Assembly (NCBI GenBank): GCA_017506865.1
Contig: JAFCMP010000036.1
Coordinates: forward strand, 186,001 to 250,000
Source of the DNA: Tribonema minus
Taxonomy: Eukaryota; Sar; Xanthophyceae; Tribonematales; Tribonemataceae
DNA: 64,000 nt
Direction: 5' to 3'
The translations under genes and the position numbers were made by a program. This document shows positions 95-63,533 of the stretch, in pieces (within the stretch, counting starts at the first letter, position 1; each line of letters opens with the position of its first letter). The notes under the pieces were generated by a model, which made no database searches, was not told where the DNA came from, and worked only from the letters and a program-made list of their open reading frames with translations.

Positions 95-3000
95 GGCAAC
101 AACTGCCTGCGCGACGGGCGCGAGCTGGACCGCCTGCGCGCGCTGCCACGCCTCGCCATACTGGACACGGGCGGCAACGCGCTGGCGCAGCGGCGCGCGC
201 ACCGCGCACAGGCACTATTTGCGCTGCCCTCGCTCAAGGTGCGCAACGGCAGCGCGGCAGTGCGGCGCCGCGCCCCATCGTCCATGTTGTTGTTGTTGCA
301 CTTGCCCTCGCGCATCATATTGAATTGAATTCCGCTACTGCAGGCGCAACAACGCGCGCACCGCGCGCAGGCACTCTTCGCACTGCCCTCGCTCAAGGTG
401 CGCGACGGCAGCGCTGCCTTAGGGTTAGGGTTAGCGGTTTGCGGCGCCGCGCTTCATCATCGGTGTTGTCGTCAATGCACGTACTGCCCTTGCGCATTGC
501 AGTGGAGCGACTTTTGCTGCTGCAGGCGCTGCGCGCGTGCACTTGCGAGGCTCGGCACATGAACGTTTTCCACACAGCGCTGCGCTTTCTGCGTACCAGC
601 ACGAGGTGGACACAGGGTAAGGGTTATAGATAGGGTTAGTATTACGGCTACAGGTAAATTACATTTGTCAGAGTTTCGCTTTGTTAGTGCACAACAACAG
701 ACTAGGTTGGACTTGAAGCTGGTGCACGTTCCTCGGTGGCCAAGCGCTGCTGACGCCTAGATGCCAAGCCGTGCTGCATGTCACTGCGCCCTGCTGTTGC
801 AACACAGACAGTGGCGCGTACAAAAACAGCCGATTGCAGATTCATCATAGGTACTTCCGAAGTGCACGCGTGCATGTGGTGGGGGTGCGGCACAGAGTAA
901 AGCGGAACCTGGCTTCGCCTCTGACGCGCATGTACCTCAGTACGACACTCGTCCTGTTGCAGCAACTGCACTCGCGGTACATGTGGCAGCGCGACAACGC
1001 CGGGCAGACAGGCCCTTGTAAGTGCCTGCATAGATATTATGTGTACTTGAAGTAAGTACTTCTATATGACCAATTTTGTGCATGTATGCGTGTGGCAGGT
1101 GCTTGACGGACTAGGCGTTGGCGCGGGGGAGACGGATGCCGCACGGCAGCAGCTCGAGGGTGCTCTGACGGAGGACGCGCTGGCAACTGCTGTGGGACAC
1201 CGCGACCTGAACTCGCTCACAAGTCTGAGTCTCGATCAGGTAGTGCATTCATGAATCCACCAAGGGCGGTACAGCAGGGTGCCGTGGCCTGCATTTTTGC
1301 GCACGAGTCTGAGTTTCATCAGGTATAGGGTTAGGTTTAGGGTTAACTCGAGGGCGCGCTGATGAAGGACATGTCGTCGTGCCGACGACCGCCGTTGGGC
1401 ACCGCGACCTGAACTTGCTCACGAGTCTGAGTCTCGATCAGGTAATGCGTGCACCAATTCACGGAGGGCACTGATTGGGGCGCCGTGGCCTGAAATCGCT
1501 CATGAGCCTGAATTTTCATGAGGCATATGCATTCATGAATCTGTGAATTCATGAGTTCACGGATGACATGAATTGGGGCACTGCGACTGAGCTAGCTCAC
1601 CAGTCGGAGTCTGGATCGGGCATGCGTGTATGAACAATAATGACCGTTTGCATCTCGCGTTAAAGAATGTGGTATCGCTTGCACAATGCGCGGTACCGCG
1701 CTAACTAACCCTGACCCTGGCCTGGTGCTCCCGGCCCTACCGCCAGACTGCGTCTCGAGTGATTATGCGCCGAGAACCATGACATTTCCCATTTGAATGC
1801 ATGCTTCAGTGTTTTGACAATGTTTGCTTTGCCGAAGAGGATCTGACCGACAGGATCGCATCTAACTGGGCCACGGACATTGCACAAGATAGCATGGACA
1901 TTGAGCGGGTACAGAAAGCTGGCACCGATGAGGGTTAGGCGAGGGTTAGGATCGAGGCTAGTGACACGTAAGGGACACTTCAAGCATGAAGAAGCCACAA
2001 AGTTTGGTGGGACGCGGCGGGCTAGCATCACCGCCGTGCACAGCGTCTACCCGAGAGCAGCGTATGCCCATGCACCACATACCCCCCCCCCCCCCACTCA
2101 CCCCTACCCCAACGAGCCGAGCGTCCCTAACCCTAACCCTAACCCTAACCCTAACCCTAACCCTAACCCTAACCCTAACCCTAACCCTAACCCTAACCCT
2201 AACCCTAACCTTAACCCTAAGCGTGCCGCCTCACGTCCCCCACCGCCCCCTATCGCCCGCCCGTCGCCGCAGGGCAAGTGGCGCGACGTCAGCATCTTGG
2301 GTGCGCCGGGACTGCTGCTGCCGTCGCTCACGGCGCTGTCGCTGCGCGGCAACCGCCTGTCGGCGCTGCCGCCGCCGCTGTGCGCGCTGACGGCGCTCGA
2401 CGTGACGGCCAACCGCATCGGCGGCGTTGCTGCTGCTGCCGCCGCCGCCGCCAGTGAAGGCGATGCGCCGAGCCCCGCCGTGTGCTACCTTCAGCTGCAG
2501 GTGCGTGGCGCGTTGCACACCTGGCATGGCGCATCTAAAGCGTTTATGCAGCATTTGGGATGCGCTGTGCTGCATACGCGTCAGTGCTCAGTGCAGAGAC
2601 GCGGCTCGATGCGACCAGCAGGTGGCGCGCTGATGCGCAGGAAAATCTGAGCTGCCAGCGAGCGTCTGCGGAGTGCCGTGCCCGTTCTTGCAGGCTTGCT
2701 GCCCGCTTTTGCTGTTGCTCTGTTGAGCATCGCAATCGCCGTAAAACTGGCCTCTGGTGAGTTGATCGACAGCTGCTGGCAATGTGCCCATTGCACATGC
2801 CGTACGCTCGCTTCTCGGGTCAGAGTTCCGGCTCAAGGACTGTCGTCTCGCAACCACGCATTGTGTTATACCGACGATGGCCCTTGCACTGGAGCCGATG
2901 CCGTGCACGCGCACGGCTGTTCTTGCGCAGCGTGCCGCGCCAGGCGCCCGCTGCCGCCACCTCAATCCCAATCAGTCCTGGTCATGCATCATCATCACAA

Positions 3001-5162: not shown

Positions 5163-5217
<55 letters not shown>

Positions 5218-23600: not shown

Positions 23601-26600
23601 AGTATGTCAGATTCGCATATGACACGTGGGAAGTGTCGCGTCGCGTGAACACACGCGCACGCAAATACACGCACAGCCATGCCCCCCCCCCCACACACAA
23701 GGCACACCCACACGTGCACACAAAGGAACACTCACGCACGGGCGCGCGCGCACACACACGCTCAGCGTTACAGAGCCACTTGTGATGCGCACATGATGCG
23801 TGGTACCATCGAAACCGTTCCGCATTAAACACCTAATCTTGGGGTTAGGTCATGGTTTGCTCTGCATCAACTTCACCAGGTGACTCTCAACGGACGCACA
23901 TCACCTCATGAGGCCTGCACCGCGAGCATGTCAGCGCAGCACTGCTGCAGCCTACGCGTGCGGCCGCAGCGCGCCCGTTACGCCGCCGCTGCCGCAGTCG
24001 CCGCCGCTGCCGCAGGCGCGCGACGCAGCATCGCTAACCCCCCACGCGACCCTCCCCTTTCCTGATTTTCCAGGCGCTGAGCAGCGCTGCGGAGGGCACG
24101 CGGCTGGCGCGCCTAGACTGCGCGGGGTACTTTGCGCGGGGCCTGGCGCTGCTGGCGCGCAAGTGGGTGAGTATTTTTAGGGTCAGGTAGGGTTTAGACC
24201 TGAGGTTGGGGGTTGGGGGGTACGGAGTCTCGGAGCGTTGTGGCGGCCTTGCGTCCGCGCGGCGGCGCGCGCAAGTGGGTGCGTACTGCTAGGGCTAGGG
24301 TTAGAGGTACTTTGCGCGGGGCCGCGCGCTGCTGGCGCGGCAATGGGTGCGTACTTCTAGGGTTAGGTAGGCCTGAGGTTGTGGTGGGGGGTTAAAGGGG
24401 GACTCGGAGCACTGTGGCCCTGCGTCTGCCCTGCAGCGCACGCTCGTCCGACTGCTTGAATCGCCAGCGCCGGCAGCCGCGCACTTGATGGCGCACCCCA
24501 GGTTTGACTGCTGGCTGGCCGCGATGTGCTGGCTGCGGTGGTACTTGCGGGGGGGAGGGGGAAGGGGGGGGGGGGGGGGGGGAGGGGGTAGCTGGAGCTT
24601 TTTCGGTGTCGAACGACGATTGTACCAGAGTTTGACATGAGTTTTACGGGCGTGGGGGTTGGGGGGGCTTGTTGTCTTGCGGTCTCACGCATAACGCCGC
24701 CGGCGCCGCGATAACGAGCGGACAACGACGCCGCAGTGTAGAAACATGCGCACCGGAGCACAGACGGCTTTGCGCTTGCGCAGCGCATGGAGGCGGACAC
24801 AGCAGCGGACACAACCGCCTGGACACCGCTCGCGACGGCGACAGACGCGCTGCACGGATGAGCGCTGCTGCGCATGTCGAGGGGTGGCCGCGGTGCAATG
24901 TTGGGGGGGCAGGCAACGGGGAGGCGGGTGCGCACGCCGTCTTTTCCCAGTGAGGTCCACAGCAGGCAACGGAGCACTGCTGCAGAGTGACCCCTGCGCG
25001 CCGTTTCATTTTAGCGATTGGCAGTGATGGGCGTGCCTGCATCCGACGCGAGGACGCTCGACGCCGCAGTGCGCCATCACAGCGTACATACCTGCGTAGA
25101 GTCAAGGCGGCACTCGGCGGTGCGAACGGGACGTTTGTGCGGTGTCTACGCGGGCACAGCGGCCGGGGGGGGGGGGGGGGGGGACGCTGCCATCAAACCC
25201 ACGTGCCCATGTCAAAAGCCACGGTGTGTGCTGCGTGGCACATGCGTCTCAAGTGCCGCCCTGCACAGCGCCGACTGCGCCGATCATGTGCCCAATGGCG
25301 CCAGCAATCAAGGCGAGCACTGACTGTGCGACGCGTTGACGGTGGCAACGCTCGTCGCTGCCTCGCGGGCGTGCCCAGCTCCTCCAAACCCTGGGTTCTA
25401 ATTCCAAGCGTTAGACCTGACCGTAAACTCTAACCCTAGCCCTCGTGTTTTGTCCCAACGGTCACCGCTCCCAGCTCCGCAAAAAACCTGGGTCCCAACT
25501 GCAAGCGTGAGACCTGACAGTAAACCCTCACCCCTAGCCCTTGGTTCTACTTGCAACGGTCACCGCTTGCGTGTGATTGCACTGCTGTGAACCCTGGGTT
25601 CCAACTTCAAGTGTGAGACTGAAACCTTAACTCTAGCCCTCGAATTTCGTCCCAACGGTCACGGCTCCCAGATCCGCAACAAACCTGGGTTCCAATTGCA
25701 AGCGTGTAGACCCTAATCCTAGTCCTTGATTCTAACCCTGAGGTTGCCGTTTGCACACATGCAGCTGCGCGATAACCTGGAAGCCATCCTGTCCGACAGA
25801 GCGCTGCTGGCGCACGCGGTGGAGGAGACGATCCGGTTCGAGCACGCGCTGGAGGCCGAGGTGACGCTCACTGCACAGTATGTATGTATACATGCATGTG
25901 TGTATGTGCACAGAATGTACTTTTGTGTGTGTCTTGCAGTATGAATACGTGTACGTGCACGTACAGTAGATACATGTTTGAGTTTCTTGCAGTATAATCT
26001 ATGTACGTGTTACCTATAACTGTGCAGTCCAGCAAAATGGAATGAGTCTTTTCTCCAACATGCAGACACACACAGAGAGAGAGGGTGTGTGTGTGTGATC
26101 GTCCCGAAGGGGGTCATCTTGACATTTTATGTCCTGCCAGATGAAAGTCTTCAATGTATTATTTTTGCCATCCATGAAACTAGGCTCTCGCTTCTGCCAT
26201 GCGGCAGAAGCATGACCTACCGGCCAGCAAAAGTGAAGAGGCAGCATCGGGCCTGTGCATGTTCATCGTCACCACAACGAGCGGTGTACCTCATAGTACA
26301 ATTGATGGACTGTGAGAGCTCAACAGCGCTTCCGCGCCTCCCATCAAGAACTACTGCGCATTGCTGCTCCCATGTCCATCCACGCCAATCAGCGGTGGCA
26401 CGTCACGTTCATCAGGCACACTTGCACACTTGCACTAGAAGTTGAGAAGCAAGCCGACGCGACCGCAGCAGCATCGCGGCGACTGCGATCACTCCAGGCG
26501 CGCGCCTCTCCTGCACGCCCGCCGCCCCTGCGCTGCTGCCGCAGCATATTACGGCAGGCGCGCTACGGCGATGATTGGCGCCCCATGCCCCCTGCCTGCG

Positions 26601-38578: not shown

Positions 38579-40168
38579 TCAGCTGGCGTCTGTCTGCTTG
38601 AGCAGCGCGCGCCAGTACCCGGGCCTGCGCATGCGCAAGGGAGAGCACCGAAAGACACTGGTGAACAAGGCAGTCATCACCGCGAGAGCTGCGCGCGAGT
38701 CAGCGGAACAGCGCCTCCGACACAAAAGCGGCAGATCGGCTGAAGCTGTGTCCATGCTTGAGTACAAGTGCATGCACACGGCGAGCTACTCTGGTGCGGT
38801 GCATGCAGGGTCCGTGCGCACGCGCAAGAGAGAGCAGCGGAACACATGGTAAACAGGCAGTCAGCACCGCGAGAGCTGCGCGCGAATCAGCGCATGAGCT
38901 GCGCATGAGTTAGCCTCCGACAAGGAGTGTGCCGTCGCACGCATGCATGCATGCATACGCATGCACACGGATAACTAACCCTTTGTTGTCAGGCGGCGCA
39001 TGCGGCGCAAACAGCAGACAAGGCGGCGCGCCGTTCAACGGAGTGATGTCTGTGCGATGATGGCAGATCTGATCTGAGACGGACCTACAGGCACTGCCTT
39101 GGAGCGGCGGTGTGCACCTTAACGGTATGCATGCCCGTCGGTGGTACTCAGTGACAGGGCCTACCTGGCACATATGCGCGCCCTTGCGCCTGCAAAGACG
39201 TGCCGTCACATAGGCTGAAAACAATGATCTTCAATGATTGCATGGCTGTGCGGTATTGTATTGAAGGCACACTACTTCCTTGAAGTACAGACTGTTGTCA
39301 AAATAGTGAAGAAATGACCACAGCGCTGGTCTGCTTTCTTGTGCGGACCTGGTCGATGGTTCGCTCTGTGAGCTGCATCCACAACACGTGGCAGCGTTCG
39401 CCAGCCGGCACTGGTCAATGACAAGCTCTCTTACACTATGACCCGCACTTGAGCCCCGCAAAGACATGGTGCCATGAAGTCGTTACGCAGAAGAAATAAC
39501 CTATTTTTATATCAGGTGGGTGCGCGGACCAAACACATGCCGCTAATGTTTACACTGATGCACATTATTTCAGTGGTTGCACGCACCTGGTTGACGGTTC
39601 GCTCTTTGTGAGCTGTATCCATACAACGCGGCGCTCCCCCTCGTCCTCTATTTGCCAGTTGCACCCCTCCCGGTCGACCGACTTGTAGAGCTGCGAACAG
39701 CGGCGGCGGCGACGAAACGTCATGCATGGCGATGACGGTGTGACACGATTTGGGGACGATTGCAATACAAATGATGTCAGCATTACGCACAAGGATGGCC
39801 ACAGCCTGACGGCGCAGTCATGAAACATGCGCGTTCGCTCGACAGGTGGCAGGCATGCAGGGGCGTCGCTACTGCTGCCCACCGCGCTGCATGACAGTAG
39901 AACTTGACAATAAAATTGTTACCATCTGACGGCGGGCGCGGCGTATCATGACATCGTAGTCACTTGACCCACGCTATGTCATTGACAATGCTCCGGTAAC
40001 ATTCTGTTCGCTGTGTCATTTGGTAACGTAAGCAGACCTACAGTACATACGCACCTCCCCACTAAGGACCACCTCCTTTTTTATTGTGACAGTGATCCTG
40101 CTGGTGCCGGTCAGCGTGAACCCAATGTCGCTCCTTCCAAGCTCTGCAGGTCACACAGACGACGCGCG

Positions 40169-40201
<33 letters not shown>

Positions 40202-44948: not shown

Positions 44949-47637
44949 ATGAGGACTACCCTTCGCAGCCTACGGGACAGGCAACCCCAACAGGATAAGG
45001 CAGAGCGCGCAGAGCATCCCGCAGATGAACCGCTGTTCGCAGAGCCCAAGCAAGCTCGCAAGTCCGGAAGAGCTGCCACTGCTGGCGATGACGATGCATT
45101 CTACAGTGACAGCAAAGCGCGTCAAACAATAGAGCTGGCGCCGCTACGAGCCAAAGATGATCCTGATGACAAACATCAGGGTCTCGAGGTGAGATGAACA
45201 TGGCAGTGGCTTGGCACCAGAGCACATTTCATAAGTGTAGGTGCTTGAATGGTCTGCGCTGCCAATGCGCGTGCTAACACAGCAGTCGGTGTTGACCTCA
45301 CTCATGTACTGTGAGCGCATCATACCTGAACAGTCCGGTGATCACCCCGTATGTATGCGTGCTAGCAGTGACGGTCCTGCGCATGCCATTGTGACATTGC
45401 AAGATTTGTGCCATCAGCCGTGGTAGGCAACAATCCGCCTTCTGCTCATAGTGCGGTTGCATACAATTTCTGCCACTAATGGCGCCCGTTACGCAAGCCT
45501 CCTGCGCCTGACTGTCGCTTACGCCTGCGCCACCACTGCCGCCTGCTGCTGTGCCCATCCGTCTTGGTGCGCTTCCAGGAGCAACCGGCCTCCGCCAGCC
45601 GCCACTCCATCAACACCGGTAAGCAATCACGTGGCAATGAACGGCAGCGCTCAGGGCATTGACTCATCTGCACATCGCCACTTTCTGTTTATGAGAGCGC
45701 TGCCTGCTGCGCGCCATTCTCGCACGTGCACTTGTGCCGTCCGAACTTGAAGTTAGGCCCAGCATTAAAACCACGTCATTCATGCTCATGGCGCCCACTG
45801 CTTAATGTGCCGCGTGTCGCTCTCCGCCTTGCCTGCCTGTACGGACTCTACATGCGTCCACGTGCGCAGGCGCAGCGAGCCACGACAGGTGCGCCGTGCA
45901 TCGCTTTGATCAGTGCTCAGCATTGCTCCATGCTCGTGCGGGGGAACCTGATCATCTTGCCATCAATACTCGCCCTGGCGCCTCGCATCACTCGGCTTAG
46001 TATGCAGGCCTCATCCGTGTTGACTTGTGCAGTTCTCCATTAGCGCAGCCAGGTCTGTGTGCGCTGCCGTAACTTGCGGCGGACCTCCACTGCTGTCATT
46101 GGTGCACTTCAACTTCAACTTGTCATGCTGAAGCCTTTCACGCCCCGCCTGCGTTGTGGTCCCGTAGCTGCGCGCCAACAACCGCATTGACTGTGCATTC
46201 CTGCGACGCCTGCATGCGCTGCGCTGGTAAGCTCACCGCTTGCGCACTTGACGTTCACGCACAATGTACAGGGAGAACAGCGCTCGCGCCAGGCGATCTG
46301 AACCGAGGGACGACAAACCAGGGCCGCCGCCGCTTGCCAGGTGGGCGCCACGCTTGTGGTGCTCTGATACAGTCTCATCAGTCTGATTAGAAATAAGACT
46401 GAACCTGGTCACAGATGGAAATGGTTGCACAACCTTCTCACGAAGCGCGCTTTCTGTGATGTGAGCGCATACGTTGCAGAAGCACGCAGTGTCACGAACA
46501 TGTCCGACCGGCGGTGGTGGCGCGGCGCGCCACCACGCGTCCGCTTGCTGCCGTCGCCGTCGCACGCTCTTGACACACGCGCTTGCTTGCGCACCGCAAC
46601 TCGTCTCAACAACGCTGTTGTCACGACACAAACACCGGGCTGCCGCCACCGCTATGCGTTGGGCTATGCCACCGCACATGCTTCTCAGTTCCATAGTGGC
46701 CTCCGCGTCCCCGTCGCGCCGCCGCTGCTGATAGACGGGGGGTGTGTGTGCTCTGCGATATGGATTGATAGGAACCGGACTTTGACTCTGTCTCACACTC
46801 GCCCTCACGAGTCGTGGGGCACGCCCGCAGCGCCGCGCGGCAGCGCTGCAGCATTCAGAGTCGTCTCGGGTGTGCCGCCCCGTGCTGCGCAGGAAAACTG
46901 CCAACAACGAGCCCCCTTAGCGCCATGACTTCAACGCCACAACACCTCAACTTCACGCCTGTGGCATGCCTTTCCTCCCCTCCTCTATCCGCCGTTGCAG
47001 CGCCCACGCCAGCCAGAAACTCGCCACAACGAAACCCTACAACTTCACACGTGTAACTACCCCCCCCCCCCTGCCGTGCTGTGCAGGCCCTCCACCACCG
47101 CCGAGCCGCGGGCCAGCCACGGCGACCGCGGCAGCGGAAGCGCGGCGGCGGCGCGCGCCTCGGGCACGTCGAGCGTCGCGCAGCGCCTGCGCGAGCTGGG
47201 GTACCTGCGCGCGCCGCCAGAGTCTGCCGCCGTCGCTGCTGCCGCCGCTGCAGACGCTGCACAGGTGCGTTTTGCCGTGCTGTGGTGGTGATGCTCAGCA
47301 GGGTGTGTCGCCAGTGCTCAGCGCGTTGTGGGGCGTCCGCGGCTGCGTGCATTGTGCTGCGCCTACGGTGCGGCAAGGCAGTTGCAGTATTATATACTTG
47401 CGCAGCGCCTGCGCGAGCTGGGGTACCTGCGCGCGCCGCCGGAATCTGGTGCGGCCGCCGCCGCTGCTACCGCCGCTGCCGCAGATGCTGCGCAGGTGCG
47501 TTGGTTGTGCTGTGGTGTTGCGGGGTGTCCGCGGCTGCGTCTTGTTGTGCCGCTGTGATGCTTTGTCTTTGGTGCGGCAGGGAAGTTTGCTGCATGCTGG
47601 TGAACTGACCATTGGCGGGGGGGGGGAGGGGGGATGA
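44949..47637 (+). CDS. Unknown, mostly disordered protein
   Basis: Phase-consistent exons are 44949-45188, 45283-45348, 45579-45618, 45870-45888 and 47087-47264, with a possible last exon at 47581-47637 ending in TGA. The N-terminal 80 residues are polar and charged (RSLRDRQPQQDKAE, GDDDAFYSDSKARQTIEL). Exon 2 encodes LTSLMYCERIIPEQSG. The large exon carries Ser/Gly/Ala-rich sequence, the helix SVAQRLRELGYLRAPPES and an Ala run. No family is recognised. The 19-nt exon at 45870 is supported only because it fits both phases. The 3' end is uncertain, since B9D2 begins at 48621. The end of the large exon is echoed 230 bp downstream. Confidence 0.55.
47401..47494 (+). repeat. Donor-side echo of the exon ending at 47264
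   Basis: The stretch coding AQRLRELGYLRAPPES plus the Ala run is copied with an intact CGCAG/GTGCGTT donor. The similarity extends over the next roughly 100 intron bases (TGCTGTGGTG, GTCCGCGGCTGCGT, GGTGCGGCA). Confidence 0.9.
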
Positions 47638-48007: not shown

Positions 48008-48620
48008 GCCTACATGCCCACTTTCGCTGCGCCACTCTCCTGCAGTGCCCTCCTTGGTACTGATCGTCACTTGAGGGCCAACATGCACAGCAGCGGCGAC
48101 CACGGTCATTCGTGGAAGGCACTCAAGTTGACGGCTAACCACACCTTGTCACCTAGAGCTCTACGATCTTTGATCCGTTTTCATGCACATGAGCGCGGCG
48201 TCGCTCTCTTCGTGCCCAGGCAAAGGCGCGGCAGGCGCCGCAGAAGGTGCCTGCGAAGCCACTTTCATTATCTTGTTGTGCCGTCACGCACGCAGCGTTC
48301 CCCGATTTTGAGCATTCGATACAAGTGTACCCCTGCTGCAGCCCCCTTCTTATCCAGATCCTTATGCAAACATGCACACACACGCCGCGCCCGCTCCCTG
48401 CGCGCCCAGGCAAAGGCGCGGAAGGCACCGCCCGGAACCGCTGTTAGGGTTACGGTTAGGGTTAGGCATACCTACATGCCCGCATTCGCTTCGCCACTCT
48501 CCTGCAGTGGCCCCCTTGCTAGCCCTCATCGCCACTTCAGGACCAACATGCGCACACACGCTACGCCGCTCTCTTCATGCCCAGGCAAAGGCGCGGAAAG
48601 CGCCGCCGGCGCGCTTAAGG
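48008..48620 (+). repeat. Repeated upstream region of B9D2
   Basis: CCTACATGCCC...TCGCCACTCTCCTGCAGTG at about 48008 recurs at about 48470. GCCCAGGCAAAGGCGCGG recurs near 48217, 48406 and 48579. A GTTAGGGTTACGGTTAGGG stretch at 48445-48468 sits exactly where one copy ends and the next begins. The last copy abuts the B9D2 start codon, so promoter or 5' UTR sequence has been duplicated. Confidence 0.8.
48114..48184 (+). repeat. Dispersed short repeat, copy 3
   Basis: Contains GGCTAACCACACCTTGTCACC, TAGAGCTC and TACGATCTTTGATCCGTTTTC, shared with 18515-18562 and, inverted, 40266-40345. Confidence 0.8.
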
Positions 48621-51539
48621 ATGGTCGCTGCACACGTGCCCGAGATGCACGTCATCGGAGAGATACTGGGTGAGCGTCGTCGCCCTCTCTGCAGTTGAAG
48701 TTTTTCTTGCACAGTTGAAGTTTTCTGAGTAGTGTGACACTTCCACGCCGCGCCGCCCTTGCCCATCGCGCGCGCGACGTGGTGGAACTTCGTCCTCACC
48801 CAAGTTGAAGGTTTACAAGTTGAAGGTTGTTCACACATTTGAAATTTTGATGAGGCTGGCCAACTGCTCCCAAACTTCATCTGCAACGACCACTGGCCGT
48901 AGAGGCAGCGGCAGCGACCGTGTCGTTGCAAGAGGCGCAACAGCATCAGGCACAGGATGCGCGACCAGTAGCGGGTCGCGGCAACCGCAGCGTTTCGCCC
49001 TCATCGTGCATCGCCATGCCTGGAAAGAAAGTGCTGAGCAGCAGGTCTCGTCTGTGCAGCGATGCTGTGATGTGTCAGTGCGGCGGCGCGCGCGCTGCCA
49101 TTTCGCACAACGTTTTCGGGTGCCGGCGCACTCTGCTGTGTGGGGGTAACGCTAGTGGGGTCGGTTCACAGGTCTTGACCACTGAACGTGCAACTCATAC
49201 TGGCCTCCTCCTTGGGGCCTGTGGCAAGTGCAAGGCCGTGAGCGCGGCCGCTTTGAAGCGCGGACTTTGTGTGGAGCTGAGCGCTGCTGCCTGACTCCTG
49301 AGCGGTGCTGCATGGTGATCTTTTCCTACGGTCTCCAAAAGAGGTGATTGCAACCTCTGTGCATGCGCGCGTGCTGTTGCTGCCGCCGCCGCTGCCGCCG
49401 CCGCTGCTGCTGCCGCTGATGTTGCTGTTGCTGCTGCTGCCGCCGCCGCTGCTGCTGCCGCTGATGTTACTGTTGGTGCTGCTGCTGCTGCTGCTGCCGC
49501 TGCTGCTGCCGCTGATGTCGCTGTTGCTGCTGCTGTGCGCAGGCGGTGTCGGGTTCGGCACGGGTGTTTCCTGCATGTATCGCGTGGAGGCAGGCAAGGT
49601 GAGCAGTGCTTCGCTCTGTTGCTAGCGTGGAGTCAGGCTCAGGGTGTGGGTTGCGTTAGGTCATGACTCACGGGTCACGGCAGACATGCAGTTAGAGCAG
49701 CTGGGCCGTCAATGCGAGCAATCACGATGAATCGCGTCATTAGACGTGATGTGCGTGTTCTGCATGGAGGCAGTCAAGGTGAGCAGCGCTCCGCTCGCTT
49801 GCCAGTTCGGGGTCAGAATCAATGTTTGGGTTGCGTCACGTTGTCAGAGCACACATAGCTTAGGATCAAAACAACGTAATGTCGACGGGAGTGGTCAGCA
49901 TTTGTGTCGTTGCGATGTGACGTGCCAGCCCTCCGCTTGCGCCCGACGGGGCCAAATGCCTACAACAGCTACATGCGTGCATAGGATACACGTATCTACA
50001 CGCCTTCCACTTGAGGGTGCATTTGTCGGCGTTGCAGTGCTCGGTGCTCAGTCCGGCTATGCCCCCCCCCCCCCCCCCCATGCAGAACTGGACGCTGCTC
50101 TGCGGCCACGACGCGGGGCACACGCAGGTGGCATATGCGGTGAGAGCATGTAGACATTTACATGCTGTGGGGTATGTGAAGATGCGGCGGCGCATGGAGC
50201 GTATGCAACGGTGATTTCAAGTACATGCTTGCACAGGATTGGCGAACCCCGTACGCTGAGATTTTATGTGCAGGCAGAAACGAATGGCTTTGGATGCCCT
50301 CCGCGTAGAGTGTTTTCGCACTTCAAGTGCGCACCTCAAATATATACCACCAGGTTTGACGTACTTGAAGTACCCGACAAACCCAGGTTGACAGGATGGG
50401 CGATTCCCAGCCACAACTTCAAGCTGCAAGCAAGAACAATTTACTCAGATGATGCCCCCCCTCCCCCCCCTCTCCCGTCCCCCGCCGGCCCCCTTCCCCA
50501 GGACCCGGAAGAGCTGGCCCCCTGGAACCACCCCCTGGACGTCCACTACACCACCAAGAGCATGCAGGGGTGGCCGCGCCTCGTCATGCAGGTCTGGCGG
50601 CTCGACGAGTTCGGCCGCATGGCCGTGCAGGGCTACGGCTTTGCGCACCTCCCGTGCGCGGCGGGCGCCGCGGAGGTCGCGGTTCCGTGCTGGCGCCCCG
50701 TGGGCTCCGTGCAGGAGGCAAGTGTGGTGTTGGTTGAGCGCTGAGTTTTGGGCACATATAGGGTAGGTATATAGTGACTGCGCGGCGGAGGTCGCGGTGC
50801 CGTGCTGGCGCCCCGTGGGCTCCGTGTAGGAGGCGAGTGGCGTTGAGCGCTGATGCTTTGCGTGCATGTAGGTAGGAATACGGTACTGCGCCGCGGAGGT
50901 CGCGGTGCCGTGCTGGTGCCCTGTGGGCTCCGTGCAGGAGGCAAGTGGCGACTCTGATGCTGTTCCGGCGTGTGTATGTACACTGCTGCGGTGCCGCGCC
51001 GGCAGGCCCATTCTTGCAGTGGGCGCATGCGCTTGTAGAGCGCTGCTGTTGCTTTATGTATGCTGGCATACCGTGTGGCGGAGGCGGCGGTGCCGTGCTG
51101 GCGCCCCGTGGGCTCCGTGCAGGAGGCGAGTCGTGGTTGTTGAGCGCTGATGATGCTTTTACTGTGCACGTGTGGGTACACTGTGGCGGTGCCGTTGTGG
51201 GCTTCGTGCAGGAGGTAAGCGGTGCTCTTGAGCGCTGCTGACACGTTGTTGTGCTAACGCGCATGTAGGTAGGTATGGCACTTGTGGGGCGGAGGTGGCG
51301 GTGCCGTGCTGGCGGCCCGTCGGCTCCATGAAGGAGGTGCTTGGTTGAGCGCTGCTGCCTCTGCTGCTGACACCTTGCCTCTACATTCGCACTCGCGCGC
51401 ATTGTGTGATCGGCGCAGTACACTCCGGAATGACGATACACTGTGCAACACAGCAGCAACGCGCGCGGTCGGCCGTAGCGCAGCCACTCATTCACACCAT
51501 GCGCGTGCTGCAGTCCCCATCCGAGTGCACCATCTGACG

Positions 51540-51570
<31 letters not shown>

Positions 51571-53192: not shown

Positions 53193-56100
53193 TCATACGC
53201 TCGGGACCTTGCTAGCCGACCCAACGTCCATATCGCCCGCGGGCCGCTTCGCCCCTGCGGTGCCGTTCGCGCTAGCGGCAGCAGCAGCGCTGGCTGCGCC
53301 GCCGCCGCTGCCGCCGGCAGCAGCAGCTGCGCGCGCCGCGCCGCTGACCGTGTTGCGCATGAGCATCGCCACCGTCATGGGGCCGACGCCGCCGGGCACG
53401 GGCGTGATCTTGGACGCGCGCTGCTTGGCGGCGGCGAAGTCGACGTCGCCAACCATGCGGTAGCTGCGGCGGCGCGCATTGCACGTCGAATGTCATGAGA
53501 TTGAACCACTGAAAATGGGGAAGAGGCATTCGGGCGTGGAGTCTTTGCGAAGAGCCTGGCGGTGCCGCGCATGCGGTGCAGCGCGCATTTCGAGTACGGA
53601 CAGCGCTAACGCTAACCCTAACCCTAACCCTGAGGAAGCGCGCGCAACGCTCGAAAGCACGGCATGGGTCCACGCCGCAGTGCTGAAGCTGCCGCTGAGC
53701 TCCGACGGCGCACCAGCGTCTGCAGGGCACATGCAGCCCGCAGCACACGACTTTGGCGTGGAAGCTGAGGTGTGCACCAAATCACGCGCTGTTGGGGTCA
53801 GCAGTAGTCGCCTCTAGGGTTAGGGCTTGGATCAGGCGTGTTTCCTTGGGGAGTGCTGTCCACGCTGCTGATGCCAATGTCAGTCGCCGCCACACATCGA
53901 GCCTGGTTTTCGAATGCACGAAGATCAGTCCTTGCTGTTCTAGAGGTGCAGAGCAGACGGCCTCCCGCGACTCTTCTGCGACGACGAGCGCTGCTGCAGC
54001 GCCCAGCCGTGGTGACATGGCACCGCATAAGGGGGGGAGGCTGCCCTGCCAAATGTCCACACAAGCCTGATATCTCGGTGGTAAAGCCAGGGTTCACCAA
54101 GCAGCGAGCTGAGGCGTGCTGCGCACTCACCCAGCCTTGCGCGTCGCGTCGTCGACTGTTGATGCCGACGTCGATCACCCTCCCTCAAGCCCCATCTAAA
54201 GCTGACACTGGTCACCACGAGCTTCAAAACTCACCTCAAACACTACCTCTCATTCTCATTCTAGCGCAACGCTTTCATCCCAGCTCACCCATATCCCTCG
54301 CTATGCTCACCCTGCTTTCTTAGTGGCGTCGTCGACGCTATTGATGCCGACGTCGATCACCACCGCGCCGGGCTTGATCCAGTCGCCCTTGACGAGCTCC
54401 GCCTTGCCGACGGCGGCCACGACGATGTCCGCCGCGCGCACCGCCTGCGGGGCCAAGCAGCACGCCTCAACCATGAGTTCACACCACGTGCGTGGCTGTG
54501 CGCTGCGCGAGCGTGTACTGCGCATCTGTACTGCGACTGAATCCTGCACCGGGCGTGTAGTGATGTCTTACGAGCCGTCGCGGCACTTGAAGTTTGCGCT
54601 GCGACGGCAACGCTCAGCAGCGCTGCTGCTCCGCATCTGCGGCGGTGCACGAGTAGAGGTGCATTGCGCAAGGACATTTGTACAGTGCAACGATATAGCA
54701 CTGCTCATCGCCTCATGTGTGTCGCGATACCTAGAGATGTTTCATGCCCGTGGCAACGCAAGGCAGCGCTTTTCAAGACGGCGAGCAGCATGCGCTGCCA
54801 CGTCAAAGCGCGTGCAGCGAATGGCAAGCTACGTGTCAGTGGCACAGCTGTGCACAACGGTAATCGCGGCGACGCGAGGCATGAGCAGCATGGGCGCAGG
54901 GATGCTGGTGCTGCTGATGACACCGGATAAATTACACGGCACCAGAGTACGCAAAAAACAAGGCGGGTGCGATGGCAAAGCTCAGCACCCCACGCACGCA
55001 CCTCCTCCGCGTCGGTGGAGCGGCTGTGCACGATGGTTGCTGGTGCCGCTGATGATACAGAATATACACTACATGGCACCAAAGTGGGCAAAAGCAAGCG
55101 GAGTGCGGTGACAACGCTCAACACCCAGCACGCACCTCCTCCACGTCGGTGGACCGGCTGTGCACGATGGTGACGGTCGCGTCGCGCTTCATGAGCAGCA
55201 TCGCCGTGGGGATGCCCACGAGGTTGCTGCGGCCAAGGACGACGGCGCGCTTGCCGGCGATCTGCACGCCGCTGCGTGAGAGGAGAGAGCGCATGTGCAA
55301 AAAACAGTGGTGAGCGCAAGACAGCACACGCATGCATACGAGAAACCAGGAGCTGTGCAGCCTGTGCAGAGCTTGCTACGTTATGATTGGATGCTTGTAT
55401 AGGGAGTATCGCCCATGGGATGACAGCGTGCTTGCCGGCAATCTGCACGCCGCTGCGTTGACGGAGGGCGAGGTAGCGTGTGCGCGAAAAGCGTGAGGGC
55501 GCGTGCGCGCAAAGCGTACGGCAGCACACACGCTTGGGAAATGCGGAGCTGTGCAGGCTGCGCAGAACTCTCGGCACCGCAATTGAATGCTACGAGACAT
55601 TGACCAGTGTTGGTAGCACCACTGTGGCAATGCTACGGCGGAGGACCACGGCGCGGGCCGGAGGGAAGGAGAGTGTGTGCGTGCCGGTGACCGAACGACA
55701 CCCAAGTTGTGTGCAAGGTGTAGGGTTAGGGTTAGGGTCAGCGTGTCGCATCATCGATGACGAGAGTTTACGGTGAACTGCACGCCGCTGCACGAGAAAG
55801 AGTGTGCAAGTCGCATTCGGCAACCTTACTCTGAGGAAGTGAGAGAAGAGCATAGCAACATGCGCATAGCTTTCAGCTTCTGCATCAAGAAGGCGACAGG
55901 CGCTTCATTTCGCACGAGGCTGCAGCGTGTGGCAGAAAACTGCATGTTGAACATGACACGGCCAACGCGAGGTGCACATGAAAGTGATGACATGTACGCA
56001 ATGGAAGTTGATCAGATTTCATGAACAGTAAGCATGCGATGCATACGATCCTTCCGTCGAGCTGCCCCACACAGCCCTGCGGCGTCACCAATATCAAATC

Positions 56101-59100
56101 AAGTGTATCACCATTCCACTACGTCAAACGACAATGACGTAAAACAAATAACGTCGACTAGTCTGCACAATGGCAACGCACGTCTACATACGTACCTTCA
56201 ATCGAGCAGTTCCACGCAGCCCTACGGCGTGGGCGGCACCAACATCACAATAAGAACTTCTATATCACCACCCAATTATGTCAGACACAGTGATGCCGTG
56301 ACACAACGTCAACCAATGAGTGCGCGGCGGCGATGCGCATCCACATGCGTACCTTCCGTCCACAATAACCACGCAAAAAGAGAATGTCAACAATGTGTGC
56401 ACAACGACAACGCGCACCTACATACATACCTTCGATCGAGCAGTTCGACGCAGCCCTGTGGCGTGGGCGGCACGTGGAAGTCGAGCTCGTCAAAGGCCCA
56501 CGCGAGCCGCTTCGCGCCCTGCGCCGCGCGCCCCATGCTGAGCGCTGCCACATTTAGCGGGTGAAGGCCATCCACGTCCTGTGCCGCAGATTCGGGGGGG
56601 CAGGGGGGGGGGGGGGGAGGGGGGGAGCAAGGGTCAGAAGTCATGTGCAAATCGGAAAGGTCGTATGTCAATAGGAAGATGCAGACGGACTCAGAAAAGC
56701 ATTCCACACTGTGGAGGCTTGGTCTCATTGAGCGCTGCCGTGAGGAATCGTCGTCAATTGTGCTTGTGCTTCTCTAACACTTCAAGTAACGTCAGTGGTG
56801 AAGCAGGGTATGCGTAAACAAACACCAACACACGAACTCGTACGTAAGCAAAAGGAGAAGTGCCCCCTCCCCCTGTCCAAATCCTGCATAGATCCAGAGG
56901 CACTGCAAGGGGGGGAGTCACGCGCGAAGTTGAGAGTTGTACCTGCTCTGCAATGCATTTGTCAAGGAGACGGCGCAGACATACGCACACAAAGTCCCAA
57001 GCACACACTCGCATCAGCGCCGAACGGGGACTGCGCCAGAGGCTGCGCGACGCGCGGTCGTCTTCACGTCGCGCACATGCCACCAAGTGAGGCGGGCGCG
57101 ATGGCTGCATGTGCTGAGCGTTGTGGCTTTCTGCGTTGCCACGGCTCGCACTCGTGCAGTCCACATGCACTCATGCCCCCCTCCCCCCCCCCCTTCCCCT
57201 CAAAGAGCTGCTATTTGATAAAGCTGCCAGCTGCAGGCAGCGCCGCCGCCCCCTTCGCGGCGAGCGTTGCCGCCGCAGCAGACGCTGCGCCAACTGCTGA
57301 GCGTCATCAGCCGCGCCAGCAGCCATGCAGGCGCATGCCCTTGCGCACTCGCCACCTGCACGCCAATGTCATCTCAGGGTTAGAGTAAGGGTTAGGCCCT
57401 GACCCTGACTCTAACAAGCAGGGGAGCCCTAACCCTGACCCTAGGGAGCGTGTGTGCATACCCATCCCCAAGCATACCTCCGCCAGCGCCGCCGCCCTCG
57501 CAGGTCACGAGAAACAGAACGCCGCGGGCGCAGTCACACAGCGCATGTGCGTGCGTACAGCGTTGCGGCCGCGCGCGCCGCTTCTTCTGCGCATCCCCCG
57601 CTCAGGGTTAGGATTTGAACTGGATCAGAACTAGGGTTAGGGATAGGGGGACCCTGCGCCCCACCTTCTGCGGGTCGATGGCGTCCAGCACCGCGCGCGC
57701 TTAGGTTTAGGAATGGGAATTGGGCTTAGGATTAGGGCTAGGGAGACCCTATGCCCACCTTTTGCGGGTCAATGGCGTCCAGCACCGCGCGCGTAGGTTT
57801 AGGAATGGGGTGTAGGGTTGGGGTTAGGGGGACCTGCGCTCCACCTTTGGCAGGTCGACGGCGTACAAGTTTAGGAATGGGAATTGGGGTTAAGTCTAGG
57901 GTCAGGGTTAGGGCTAGACAGACCCTGTGCCCACCTTTTGCGGGTCGATGGCGTCCAGCACCGCGCGCTCGTCGATGTGCTTGGGCACCGGCAGCTGCAC
58001 GAGGACGCCGTGCACGTCGCGCCGCGCGTTGAACTCGCGTATGCGCCTGACGCGGCGCGGCAAGGGGGTAGGTATGAGAGGGGTAGGGTATGATGGCGGC
58101 GCGCATGGGGTGGGGGCGGGGCGGGGGGTAGGGTTGGGGGGGGTAGGGTAGGGTAAGGCGGCGGCGCGCGAGGGGCAGCGCATGTTAAACGAGGACGCCG
58201 TGCACGTCGCGCCGCGCATTGAACTCGCGTATGCGCCTGACAACGGCGGCACGGCGCGGCGAGGGGGTAGGGGTAAGGGCAAGGGGGCATGTAGGTATGA
58301 CGGCGGCGCGCATGGGGGGTAGGCTTGGGGGCAGGGTAGGGGTATGACTACGACGCACAAGGGGTAGGGCACAGGTTAAGCGGCGGCGCATCGTGGCGGC
58401 GCGCATGTATGGCGTGGCGAAAATCGAGCTTACTGAGATCAAGGGTTGAGAGCTGGGCGGGACGGGCTTCTGTCAGGTGTTGCTGAAAGCGATGGGCAGC
58501 AGAAAACAAGTGCCCGGCGTCCCATTGACGTACAGTGATGTGACGTACGTGTGCATAGTATGCACTGCATACATGTGTGACAAGCAGTGCCAGTGGCGTT
58601 GCGGTGCGCAGTGGCCGCAGCGGCGGAGCTGGGACACGCGCTTGCCACGATATGTTGCCACGATACGTTGATGGCAGGACTGAGCCGCGGAGCACGCCTC
58701 GTTGAACTGCACTTATTGCACTGAAAACTGCAATTTGTACAGAGGCCTGCCCTCGTTTTGTGCGGCAGCTGCAGGCTCTTGTACGCCCCTGTCACTGTAC
58801 TTGCAGGCAGCAGTTGCCTGCTGGTGATGATGGGGCCTGTGCCCTCAGTGATGAATGATCAGCCGCACAGCAACTGGGGTTGTGATCGAGACGCATAGTG
58901 GGCGTGCACTGATGAGCTAACTGCTCCACTTGATCAAATTCGACTGAAGGTCTGCTTGAACAATGGACTCCAGTTCAGCATGGAGACAGAGACAAACGGT
59001 TTGTCCGTCGTGCATGTTTTCCCTGCTTGTGTCCTATGTGCGCTGAGCGCCACATGTACCTGCTGGTTCTGCGTTCAGAAACACTTGTACTTCAGAAGAT

Positions 59101-60634: not shown

Positions 60635-61348
60635 ATGGGGACGCAGGCTGTGCTGCAAAGGAGCTCGATTTTAGAAGCCCAGCGTCGAAGAGCCCCCTCT
60701 TCAGCGAATGCCGATGCTGTATGCTTGGTGACCTCTGCTGCATGCCAAGGCACAGGGTTTCTCGTCACATACGGGGGCAGAACATGCCTGGTGATGGGAC
60801 AGCACCTGTGCCAGACCCCAAGTGCGGCAGCAGCAGTGCTGGCCGAGGCCTGTCCTCGCGGGGGAGGCGCTGCTGTTGCTGTATGCCTGAACCCTCGCAA
60901 GCTCTTCTTAAGGACCACCGGCGACAGAGATTTGCCGATGGATCTGGCCATCTGCGCAGCAGCACCAGCCGTAGATGTACATGTCTGTACAGTGGGAGAG
61001 GAGTCGCTGAATGACATAGGCAAAGCCGAGCTCGTGCTGGTAGGATACAGCAATGGACCTCTGAAAAAGAGGTACCAAGTACGGGTGGAATCCTGCAGCC
61101 ATGGCTGGCTCACCTACAGCAGGCCCGTGCAGGACTGCCTACACGGCAGCCCGCTGTTCTCAGGTGATCACTGTTTCAATGATCATGTGTTGAAGACTGG
61201 ATACGCTCATCAGTGTGTTCTGTGTACCAAGAATCTTTGGCTCAGTGCCTTCTTGGCTGCACGAGAGCTGGGACTCCGAGGCGGTGGGGCGCTTCGTTCT
61301 TGCGTGGTCGTCATATTCGTGAGCCCTTGTGGTGCCATTAAAGTGTGA
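60635..61348 (+). CDS. Trypsin-like (chymotrypsin-fold) serine protease-like protein
   Basis: An intronless frame of 237 codons with non-repetitive composition, unusual here. It shows the skeleton of trypsin-like peptidases: GTGFLVTYGGRTCLVMGQH with His57, PMDLAICAA with Asp103, VLVGYSNG, and CLHGSPLF with Ser172. The usual G-x-S-G serine motif is replaced by H-G-S-P, so activity is uncertain. No signal peptide or membrane segment is seen. It may instead be the first exon of a longer gene, because TTC/GTGAGC at 61317 is a good donor. Its phase 0 does not directly fit the next plus-strand exon at 61833. Confidence 0.6.
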   Translation: MGTQAVLQRSSILEAQRRRAPSSANADAVCLVTSAACQGTGFLVTYGGRTCLVMGQHLCQTPSAAAAVLAEACPRGGGAAVAVCLNPRKLFLRTTGDRDLPMDLAICAAAPAVDVHVCTVGEESLNDIGKAELVLVGYSNGPLKKRYQVRVESCSHGWLTYSRPVQDCLHGSPLFSGDHCFNDHVLKTGYAHQCVLCTKNLWLSAFLAARELGLRGGGALRSCVVVIFVSPCGAIKV

Positions 61349-61542
61349 GCTTCAAGTAGAAATTATAATGTGCTACAGTCAGTCTGCCTCACAGCTGGAG
61401 TATTCGGACTCAACTCCTTGTTCATGTTCCGAATTTCAACCTGCGACGCACCTGGCTATGTACTCTGATTTGCCCTTGTGCAGCTGCTTGCACTTGCCGA
61501 ATGTGGATGATGTGTGTGTCGCTCATATATCTTCAAAGTGTG

Positions 61543-61767
61543 TTATTCCCTGTCTGGTGCTGCTTGGATGCATGAAGCAGCTGACACCAGGAGGCTCACT
61601 AACAGCGCAGTAGCTTTGCCAGGCCGTGGATCGGGGACATGCATAGCACGCAAGAGTCTTGCGTCGAGGGTCATCTCGACATCGATCTCAAAGGATTCGC
61701 GAAATGCCAACCGCATTGCCTCGTGCTGCGCCTTGCGGCACGCGCTAAAGCTGTAACTTTGGCAAAG
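61543..61767 (-). CDS. Possible terminal exon of an unidentified minus-strand gene
   Basis: After an acceptor-like TGTGTGCAG, 74 codons run to a stop without low-complexity sequence: LCQSYSFSACRKAQHEAMRL, RESFEIDVEMTLDARLL and so on. No upstream exon was found, and a plus-strand exon begins only 66 bp away. It may be a chance frame. Confidence 0.25.
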   Translation of the reverse strand, partial: LCQSYSFSACRKAQHEAMRLAFRESFEIDVEMTLDARLLRAMHVPDPRPGKATALLVSLLVSAASCIQAAPDRE

Positions 61768-61832
61768 CTGCACACACAATGCACACATGTGACGCTGAGC
61801 TGTGACATCCCACTTGTTGAGCGCTGCCGCAG

Positions 61833-63533
61833 CGGCCACCGGCGAGCTCGTGGCGGTGCACATTCAGACCGCGCTGAGCGGAGAAGCCGACCGCGCCGTG
61901 CTGGCCGCCCACCTGTTCCGCCAGACGCGCAGCCACTTTGCGCCGTACGCACCGCCCGCTTGCGCATTGGCAGCAGCACCGGACATGCAGGTAGCGCCAG
62001 CAAAGTTTTGCATATCGAGGTCGCAGTTGAGATGGCGACGATGATATGTGTCAGAGCTCATCATTGGTATGTCACGGCATTCTGCGCTGGACAAGGCTGC
62101 TGCACGCATGGCGTGATGTGCTGCTCGTCGTCCTGGCAGCGGCAGTTGGCATAGTGCAAACGTCTGCTTCAACCCCCATGCCTGAACCGTTTCTCTGTGC
62201 GGCTTGAGCGTGCTATACTCAATTCGACATGTTGCGAACCCGCTCGCACCTGATCGAAACCCATAAAATTCCCTATGAGACACCTCTGACATTGAGTATT
62301 TGTGTCGAATTTACGTTCCTGCGAGGGCTCGACACTCATTATGACCGTCGCTTGTCAGCATCTCCTCCTGTGTGGCAATGTACGGGTGTCTTCTCACATC
62401 CGCAATCTCGCCATTGCACGCACACGCATTCCGTTACAGGAAGCTGCGCCATACAGCGGCGACGCGACCGACCCCCCCTCCAGGGCCAGGTGGCTGCTGC
62501 TCTGCGGCGGCGGTGGTGGCGGCGGCGGCGCAGCGCCGCCGTGCCCAGACAACACGCCTGACAGCGCACTCGCCACCGCAGCCGGCACCGGTACTCCTCC
62601 AGCACTGTCCGGCAGCAATGGGAGCGAAGCGTGTGCGGGTGAGCAGCCGGCAGGAGCCACGGCAGCGACGCGCGACGCCGTCTTGCAGGTGCTGCTGAGC
62701 GGCGCTGCCTCTGTCGCGGATGTGTTGGAGTGGCTGGCGACGTGCGCTGGCGGCAGCGGCGGCAGCGGCGGCGGCGGCGGCGGCGGCAGCAGTGGCGGCA
62801 ACGGCGCCGCGGCGACACTGCTGGAGGAAGTGAGGGCTGCGCTGCCGCCGGACAGGTGAGGCACGGAGTGCGGAGCCGTGAGCTGCTCAGCACTGGATTA
62901 TTGCACGGTACTGGCGCGCCGTTTCACTGCGGTGAATCGCTATCTGTTGCAGCAGAGGAATGGAGGAGAATGTGGTGGTGGTATTGACAGAATCGGCGGT
63001 GGGTGTCTGTGGTGTGCTGCGTCGAGATTCTGGACCGCGGTGCTAGTCTAACCCTAACCCTAGCAGCGGATTTGTTGACAGGCCCGGGCATAGTCGGCAG
63101 CGGCTGGCCTGCAGCCACTGTCTTGTGCATTGAGGTGTCATGCTCCGCTCATGAAAGTCGCTGCTGGGTATAAACATGTCCTCAGCACGGTGCCTATCCT
63201 CTGGGCAAAATGACCGATAATACTTCACATGCTGGTGCAAGAAGTCAATTGTCAGTGTCGTTGAAGAGTATCGAAGCGCACGATGGTCGCGCCTGCTACT
63301 GGAGCTAGTAGGCTGCCTTGCAGGGCGAGTCTGCGCAGCAATTGAAGTTGCCGTTCACGCCCGCTTCACACCCTGATTGAAGTTGCGGTGTGCATGCATT
63401 GCAGGGCAAGCCTGCGCAGCGATCTGGACCTGCAGCTCGCCAGGTGGCGGCAGACAGATGCGGCGGCAGTGGCAGCTGCGCCAGCCACCGCGCGCGCCCG
63501 CGGCGGCGCGCGCGCAAGTGTCAAGATGTCCAG
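61833..63533 (+). CDS. Unknown Ala/Gly-rich protein, partial (both ends missing)
   Basis: Three exons fit in phase: 61833-61990, 62440-62855 and 63405-63533, and the last ends in a donor (CCAG/GTCAGA), so the gene runs past the window. Exon 1 reads TGELVAVHIQTALSGEADRA and HLFRQTRSHFAPYAPP. Exon 2 has EAAPYSGDATDPPSRARWLL, a Gly run, DAVLQVLLSGAASVADVLEW and a long Gly/Ser run. Exon 3 has SLRSDLDLQLARWRQTDAA. Helices broken by glycine linkers are apparent, but no family is recognised. The 5' exon is missing and would have to end in phase 1. Confidence 0.6.
63308..63340 (+). repeat. Acceptor-side echo of the exon at 63405
   Basis: GCCTTGCAGGGCGAGTCTGCGCAGCAATTG precedes the real CATTGCAGGGCAAGCCTGCGCAGCGATCTG by 91 bp. 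The spacer also repeats TTGAAGTTGC. Confidence 0.75.

Follow-up and report, generated by a model that had tools for sequence, protein, structure and literature searches.

The window considered here is a 64,000-nucleotide stretch of the Tribonema minus assembly (contig JAFCMP010000036.1, positions 186,001 to 250,000). Its gene models include an LRR-like gene, named by eye (the model with exon 95..238), a TIP-1 family gene (20860-37815, + strand), named via the public protein P0121, a gene with a B9-domain exon, and a tetrahydrofolate dehydrogenase/cyclohydrolase gene, whose model is a 100% match to the public Tribonema minus protein P0001. Copies of exon ends, referred to here as echoes, lie in the introns next to some of the exons, as follows.

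95..238 (+), exon of the LRR-like gene with echoed donor; echo junction 397; pair 181-347 / 340-529 at 71% identity
340..529 (+), echo copy of the donor end of exon 95-238, from self-comparison
1099..1239 (+), exon with echoed donor; echo junctions 1441, 1619 and, weakly, 1322
1347..1541 (+), echo copies of the donor end of exon 1099-1239, from self-comparison
24074..24166 (+), TIP-1 family exon, its donor echoed with a junction at 24346
24306..24443 (+), copy of the 24166 donor end, 93% in the exon part
26755..26865 (+), exon flanked by echoes, one of its acceptor at 26557 (score 44) and a weak one of its donor at 27074 (score 38)
31896..31985 (+), exon, donor echoed; the public protein reads across the junction
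32050..32210 (+), 31985 donor echoed twice (97% and 95%), with spacers rich in TTAGGG-like repeats
33773..33937 (.), young, exact 82-bp tandem duplication inside an intron, without a junction; the presumed generating event
36670..36990 (+), two echoes of acceptor 37094; junctions 36719 and 36885, the second echo, at 36886-36985, being coding in the public gene model
37094..37252 (+), exon with echoed acceptor, from gene model and echo scan
39344..39392 (-), echo of the donor of exon 39587-39690, from self-comparison and echo scan
47087..47495 (+), donor surrounded by the tandem pair 47178-47290 / 47400-47520, each copy called as an exon
48182..48607 (+), echoes 48219 and 48409 of acceptor 48585 in a small array, from self-comparison and echo scan
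50502..50717 (+), exon encoding a B9 domain (PF07162), its predicted donor being GC
50780..51358 (+), B9 exon end echoed five times in an array, with junctions at 50832, 50940, 51125, 51214, 51336
54900..55037 (-), in the tetrahydrofolate dehydrogenase/cyclohydrolase gene, copy of the donor end of exon 55136-55271
55136..55271 (-), exon with donor and acceptor both echoed; over its junctions the protein is the same as P0001
55418..55569 (-), copy of the acceptor end of exon 55136-55271, from self-comparison and echo scan
56137..56239 (-), echo of the donor of exon 56430-56578, from self-comparison and echo scan
57632..57867 (-), echoes 57664, 57758 and, weakly, 57844 of the donor of exon 57935-58046, with telomere-like spacers between them
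57935..58046 (-), exon with donor and acceptor both echoed; over its junctions the protein is the same as P0001
58189..58341 (-), copy of the acceptor end of exon 57935-58046, 98%

TTAGGG-like tracts are visible by eye in some of the spacers.

Self-comparison covered the window and sampled loci, 344 kb in total, from the 158 Mb assembly. Gene models were self-trained and junctions are those predicted from them; models and junction counts leave out L001, which overlaps the window, and L016, a suspected contaminant with a GC content of.69. For the strict exon set, false exons (themselves echoes) and weak exons were removed, and 233 of 322 were kept.

Near local repeats in the 344 kb are overwhelmingly direct, with 328 on the same strand and 9 inverted, as is to be expected of small tandem duplications, which are direct, same-strand and short-distance, and as the initial annotation of this DNA had described. 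The window itself contains 51 same-strand pairs, 46 of them at offsets of 69-619 bp, and 13 inverted pairs, three of which, at offset 0, are self-palindromes. Among strict exons, 78 of 417 junctions have a copy of the exon end in the adjacent intron; about one fifth of splice junctions are thus accompanied by a decaying copy. The reverse-strand control gave 3 of 411 junctions at a score of at least 34, 1 of 411 at a score of at least 44, and about 0.1% in 30-bp windows. Therefore, a chance origin of the echoes is excluded. With echoes counted at a score of at least 34 and no more than 1 kb away in the adjacent intron, 23 of the 113 window junctions have at least one, although for three of these the predicted 'exon', located in the 50.7-51.3 kb array, is an echo itself; the strict exon set gives 18 of 84 (14 at a score of at least 44). 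The earlier figure of at least 15 loci stands, but their distribution over nine gene models does not, since six models and a weak seventh were found.

Both donors (59 of 286) and acceptors (64 of 296) are echoed, as had been claimed, and the best echo lies 100-250 bp away in 86 of 122 cases (quartiles 139, 180 and 247 bp), close to the 60-240 bp proposed earlier. Whole-exon tandem duplication is likewise a local duplication in genes, whereas the Tribonema copy usually takes in one exon end only. One copy extends over at least two junctions in 2 of 140 arrays, and 17 of the 140 have junctions in both copies, some of them also whole-exon (e.g. L017); for most arrays, therefore, the copy does not hold both splice sites of an exon, in agreement with the rarity of full-exon copies noted before. 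The same pattern is present in the sampled loci beyond the window, and near same-strand pairs occurred in 19 of the 20 contigs first sampled. Moreover, the copies differ by about 10% in the exon part and 23% in the spacer, with many indels, and an assembly artefact is hardly credible.

Spacer homology and divergence were compared in 85 echoes (score of at least 44, exons no shorter than 60 bp). Homology between spacers reaches z>1.65 in 68% of them (61% against a same-intron null) and z>3 in 53%, and 22 lack spacer homology (z<1). Since 68% of the spacers are significantly similar, the majority of echoes resemble ordinary tandem duplications that cross a junction. Divergence (d) is.104 in the exon part and.232 in the spacer. 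In the 43 echoes with clear spacer homology, substitution is.185 in the spacer and.090 in the exon part, a ratio of 2.0, as predicted by one-sided constraint, and spacer indels are 3.4 times those of the exon part. Because the ratio is only 2.0 in this clear-homology half, conservation of the echoes beyond neutrality was dropped as the main reading. Base composition was rejected as the cause of the faster spacers, as 78 intron-only tandem pairs have.147-.178 substitutions per site, nearly alike at all GC contents. Repeat-induced point mutation was also rejected, there being no strong C-to-T excess (C to T.032, G to A.036, T to C.054 per site), as was telomeric filler: spacers carry.62 TTAGGG and.34 CCCTAA per kb, so close to the values for all introns (.52 and.44) that there is no clear enrichment.

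The graded decay described previously is seen, and the copies fit neutral decay. In the exon parts pN/pS is 0.43, with 137 frameshifting and 9 in-frame gaps and 19 stops, and a frameshift or stop disables 68 of 195 copies. It had been suggested that echoes might act as decoy or backup splice sites, and selection might retain them as such or as alternative sites: 89 of 105 donor copies keep GT or GC, 81 of 101 acceptor copies keep AG, and the public TIP-1 model codes one echo. However, these dinucleotides are retained at about the level that neutral decay would leave, pN/pS fits a neutral copy, and the reading frame and amino-acid constraint of functional alternative exons are not kept in the gaps and stops counted above. 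A function of this kind is very improbable.

Young, exact tandem units were seen both away from junctions, in introns (window 33773-33937; L028) or outside exons (L007), and spanning one (L004, L017), in a comparison that used 76 of 126 junction pairs. Among single-pair events, 18 of 72 have a gap of at most 5 bp, several young cases being adjacent, and in the rest the spacers have diverged or find no match. Of the two copies, the one predicted to hold the functional junction lies upstream for 44 of 60 donors and downstream for 29 of 43 acceptors.

The density of copies is higher at exon ends than at other places in the introns, the comparison by which the initial annotation had proposed to judge its claim of anchoring. 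In 46-bp windows at a score of at least 54, strict exons gave.118 at the exon end and.015,.056,.069 (partly echoes themselves) and.026 at intron positions +8, +60, +150 and +300; in 30-bp windows of strict long exons the exonic value of.144 falls to.018-.025 on the intron side. The step became sharper once false and weak exons had been removed, and although high-GC windows retain more copies, exon ends are still ahead after GC matching. Matches extend into the intron by a median of 13 bp (37 donors) and 10.5 bp (42 acceptors), and into the exon by 51 and 48.5 bp, respectively. Junction-spanning arrays make up 41 of 100, a ratio that leaves aside the 17 arrays with junctions in both copies, versus 25% in a random-duplication simulation (p 7e-4).

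With moderate confidence, the echoes can be explained by small tandem duplications together with a selection filter and unequal decay. Small direct duplications, mostly at offsets of 100-250 bp, pile up throughout the introns of Tribonema minus and would probably arise by fill-in and joining of staggered breaks. Duplications within exons or of whole exons would mostly be purged by selection, whereas one that covers a single junction would be nearly harmless, because the outer splice site (upstream donor or downstream acceptor) still works and defines the same exon. The second copy would then land in the intron and decay neutrally. Its exon-derived part may remain recognisable for longer because the partner exon is under purifying selection, while both spacer copies drift, and the outcome would resemble copying aimed at splice sites.

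Simulated donors with random unit placement, d of.12±.05 per copy and a doubled spacer rate gave exon d.090 and spacer d.217. The simulations are of donors only and the strict observed profiles pool donors and acceptors; on that footing the ratios of exon end to +8, +60 and +150 (score of at least 54) were 5.7, 2.1 and 1.6 versus 7.9, 2.1 and 1.7 observed, and that to +300 was 2.7 versus 4.5, while the +8 ratio at a score of at least 40 overshoots (4.4 versus 2.5). At equal rates and the observed exon divergence, the +8 ratio at a score of at least 54 was 1.8-2.4, versus 4.6 observed for all donors and 7.9 for the strict set; older bursts reach 3.4, but exon divergence is then too high, and spacer d is.143-.165 at exon d.089-.107. 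Constant-birth and burst models with equal rates were rejected since they miss the observed ratios jointly with the observed exon divergence. Selection and unequal decay would appear to give most of the apparent anchoring with one fitted assumption, namely that intron spacers diverge roughly two-fold faster than exon-derived copies, as the fit requires. Counted against plain duplication are the 41% of junction-spanning arrays versus the 25% expected, the spacer indels, which exceed two-fold, the 22 of 85 echoes without spacer homology, which it does not predict, and the faster spacers, for which base composition does not account.

Breakage or template switching aimed at exon boundaries, with copies ending just past the splice site, was among the possible mechanisms put forward in the initial annotation. 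The sharp step, the short matches in introns, the excess of junction-spanning arrays and the quarter of echoes without spacer homology all agree with it, and the excess itself stands. The mechanism is nevertheless weakened because homology continues beyond the splice signals in 68% of spacers, the duplicated unit usually running well past the junction. Moreover, the step falls where the exon partner is constrained, the simulation with doubled spacer rate yields most of it, and junction-free duplications are common, with 59 of 135 arrays inside genes neither junction-spanning nor mostly coding. There is no need for a splice-site-targeted process, and such targeting is decidedly unlikely.

It is also conceivable, if rather doubtful, that exon ends are actively re-copied into introns by exon-limited conversion or boundary-directed template switching, junctions being origins of local copying. 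In the exon-limited form, which is unlikely, a constrained exon would keep rewriting its intronic echo after a junction-spanning duplication, through gene conversion or template switching in which a transcript might take part; the exon part would thus remain young as the spacer grew older. Exon-part identity is independent of surviving flank homology (.923 with it, n = 21;.905 without, n = 64; p.16), the observed spacer d exceeds the.143-.165 predicted from the exon clock, and a recently reset neutral copy would give a pN/pS near 0.5. The exon part is more alike than the intron part among intronic copies in 43 of 45 arrays, though these were found via the exon part, a search that inflates the contrast; 27 copies found via the intron part have identities of.80 (exon) and.88 (intron). 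Ordinary conversion should, however, homogenise spacers and intron-only pairs too, and the ratio of only 2.0 in echoes with clear spacer homology tells against rewriting. A spliced-mRNA template is unlikely, because matches continue past the junction into the first intron bases (52 of the 85 echoes used).

Tolerated tandem duplication has partial counterparts elsewhere. In human and mouse cell experiments, CST-Pol alpha-primase fills in double-strand breaks with 3' overhangs, which leads to small tandem duplications, described as short (<100 bp) insertions (PMC8355091). Duplication of this kind depends on 53BP1, Shieldin, CST, Pol alpha and end joining. The Tribonema copies are similarly direct, local and same-strand, and some young ones are exactly adjacent; unlike those described there, they are dense and lie mostly at offsets of 100-250 bp. 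In the account given of the potato RdRp gene, an intron was gained by tandem genomic duplication of an intron-exon structure, and a second duplication, of 83 bp, lies inside an intron (PMC4974935). The duplication spans a splice junction in both systems, but the potato case as reported concerns one gene and yields a new intron and exon, whereas in Tribonema about one fifth of junctions are involved and the copies appear intronic. The Rogers model, as cited in PMC4974935, derives intron gain from a duplicated AGGT-containing exon segment, and shares with the echoes an intragenic tandem duplication tolerated via splicing. In that model one exonic segment supplies donor and acceptor, whereas here donors are repeated as donors and acceptors as acceptors: a donor-only copy was paired with an acceptor-only copy in 0 of the 17 arrays where each copy has a predicted junction, those with one in a single copy having no bearing on this test. 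As with introners, described as dispersed families (PMC9860276), many introns are affected at once, but only 5 of 85 Tribonema spacers and 3 of 85 echoes match elsewhere in the sample of about 0.35 Mb, outside telomere-type repeats, which speaks against a dispersed intron family and the mobile process once suggested.

If the echoes are ordinary tolerated duplications, the genome amounts to an extensive natural archive of small tandem duplications, in which neutral rates, mutation spectra and duplication sizes could be read from one genome, because each echo pairs a constrained with a neutral copy; the echoes would also be raw material for intron and exon gain. If re-copying were true instead, it would establish splice junctions as sites that seed the copying of DNA nearby. 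Annotators should be cautious, since an echo is already treated as coding in the public TIP-1 gene model.

Tribonema is a xanthophyte, and the assembly that holds the window (G000:C36:186001-250000) comprises 158.18 Mb in 554 contigs. Gene models were obtained with a splice-aware hidden Markov model, self-trained from a seed of kinesin exons found by genome search. Over 344 kb, the model yielded 421 exons (322 confident) and 582 predicted junctions, all of which are model-based. Predicted donors are GT in 234 cases and GC in 52 of the 286 confident ones; that of the B9 exon, at window 50717, is of the GC type.

Local repeats within 1 kb are overwhelmingly same-strand (328 pairs vs 9 inverted pairs in the 344 kb), and near same-strand pairs are present in nineteen of the twenty 10-kb loci sampled first, the exception being L016. 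A copy of the exon end in the adjacent intron, here termed an echo, was found at 123 of the 582 junctions (59/286 donors and 64/296 acceptors). With strict exons, i.e. those of at least 80 bp with a coding score of at least 12 and not themselves within a copy, echoes occur at 78/417 junctions vs 3/411 in the reverse-strand control. The exon-boundary echo pattern claimed in the initial annotation is real and strong. The window alone has 23 echoed junctions out of 113 (18/84 for strict exons). In the kinesin gene of locus L027, located by homology, tandem pairs lie over six predicted junctions, and in the tetrahydrofolate dehydrogenase/cyclohydrolase (folate) gene six junctions belonging to four internal exons are echoed.

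The folate gene model (263 residues submitted) shows 100% identity over 98% to T. minus protein P0001, a separate public annotation whose protein sequence is the same as that of the model across the echoed junctions. A second window gene (20860-37815) matches the T. minus TIP-1 family protein P0121 (88% over 60%). The sequence AAGRRFAASVDV is present twice in P0121 and one of these copies is encoded by an echo (window 36886-36985); therefore, the public gene model counts an echo as coding sequence. Pfam named only the B9 domain, and the label 'LRR-like' was assigned by eye.

Comparison of exons with their echoes gave pN of.065 and pS of.150. Gaps between them are mostly frame-shifting (137/146), nineteen stops were found, and 68 of 195 copies carry a frameshift or a stop, a pattern consistent with constraint on the exon and neutrality of its copy, the two having similar clocks. 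Splice dinucleotides are kept in 89/105 donor and 81/101 acceptor copies. The echoes are thus non-coding, and nothing indicates that they are retained. The mutation spectrum has a transition bias and a moderate CpG excess.

Anchoring was measured in fixed windows, so that the extent was not chosen from the match. In strict long exons, the fraction of 30-bp windows with a nearby same-strand copy drops from.144 at the exon end to.025 where the intron starts and.018 a further 6 bp in; 90 bp inside the exon, it is.047. For 46-bp windows (score of at least 54, strict exons), the values are.118 at the exon end and.015,.056,.069, and.026 at +8, +60, +150, and +300 bp; the signal between +100 and +200 is partly the echoes themselves. 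Of the 140 arrays, 41 carry a single junction confined to one copy, vs 25.0±4.5 under random array placement, and the junction share is 41/100 vs 25% when selection and decay are simulated forward.

Significant similarity between the spacer past the true junction and the sequence past the echo is seen in 68% of 85 echoes (61% when the null is drawn within that intron), and strong similarity in 53%. In the 43 strong cases, spacer substitutions are 2.0 times those of the exon part, the value for two free copies vs one, and indels 3.4 times. The similarity is gone in 22/85 cases (z<1); exon identity is.923 with similar flanks and.905 without, with no clear difference (p.16). Matches reach into the intron by medians of 13 and 10.5 bp, and per-position agreement in 30 donors is.95 in the exon and drops to about.7 over the initial dozen intron bases. 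Searching via the first intron bases returned 27 copies vs 85 via the exon end, i.e. three times fewer. A dispersed repeat in a spacer at locus L009 also occurs in the window and at L030, L003, and L012, with matches of at most 98 bp and 80-90% identity from locus to locus.

A null in which tandem duplications fall at random, exons are constrained, and exon and intron rates are equal, simulated for donors, gave exon-end/+8 ratios of 1.4-2.4 by stringency, at exon divergence of.089-.107. Observed ratios are 2.3 to 4.6 for all donors and 2.5 to 7.9 for strict exons, where donors and acceptors are pooled. Equal-rate models with an older burst came nearer to these ratios with exon parts that were too divergent, and no equal-rate model matched the spacer divergence. 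Doubling the intron rate gave exon divergence of.090 (observed.104), spacer divergence of.217 (.232), and, at a score of at least 54, +8, +60, +150, and +300 ratios of 5.7, 2.1, 1.6, and 2.7 (7.9, 2.1, 1.7, and 4.5); at a score of at least 40, it overshoots the +8 ratio (4.4 vs 2.5). The fit is fair, with the factor of two fitted, not derived, and GC content does not supply this rate gap.

The economical account is that this genome's load of small tandem duplications is very high and that survivorship favours those at splice junctions. A residual bias of about two-fold remains beyond this account, as does about a quarter of the echoes, which have no detectable duplicated spacer. Re-copying of the echo from the exon would itself slow the divergence of exon-derived copies, just as the fitted gap does, and is therefore a live rival. 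The duplications would probably stem from breaks with 3' overhangs, which are known to lead to small tandem duplications via CST-guided Pol alpha fill-in (PMC8355091). One junction-spanning duplication is described for a potato gene (PMC4974935). Among the titles and abstract openings listed, with few subscription papers covered, there is no report of echoes at such scale or in Tribonema.

The introns also contain scattered telomere-type words, TTAGGG and CCCTAA (.52 and.44 per kb), of which exons are nearly free (.08 and 0); one such site is window 2125-2220. Telomere-repeat 9-mers are 150-390 times above Markov expectation, and the introns of the sampled loci show a 20-32-fold over-representation of words such as ACTTCAAGT, ACTTGAAGT, GTTGAAGTT, and AACTTCAAC. 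L016 (G000:C35:100001-110000), with GC of.69 and neither telomere words nor near tandem pairs, is possibly a contaminant. Kinase matches on contigs C90/C179 and on C144/C223/C278 have equal or nearly equal scores, in matching order for C90/C179, which suggests allelic or duplicated contigs within the assembly.
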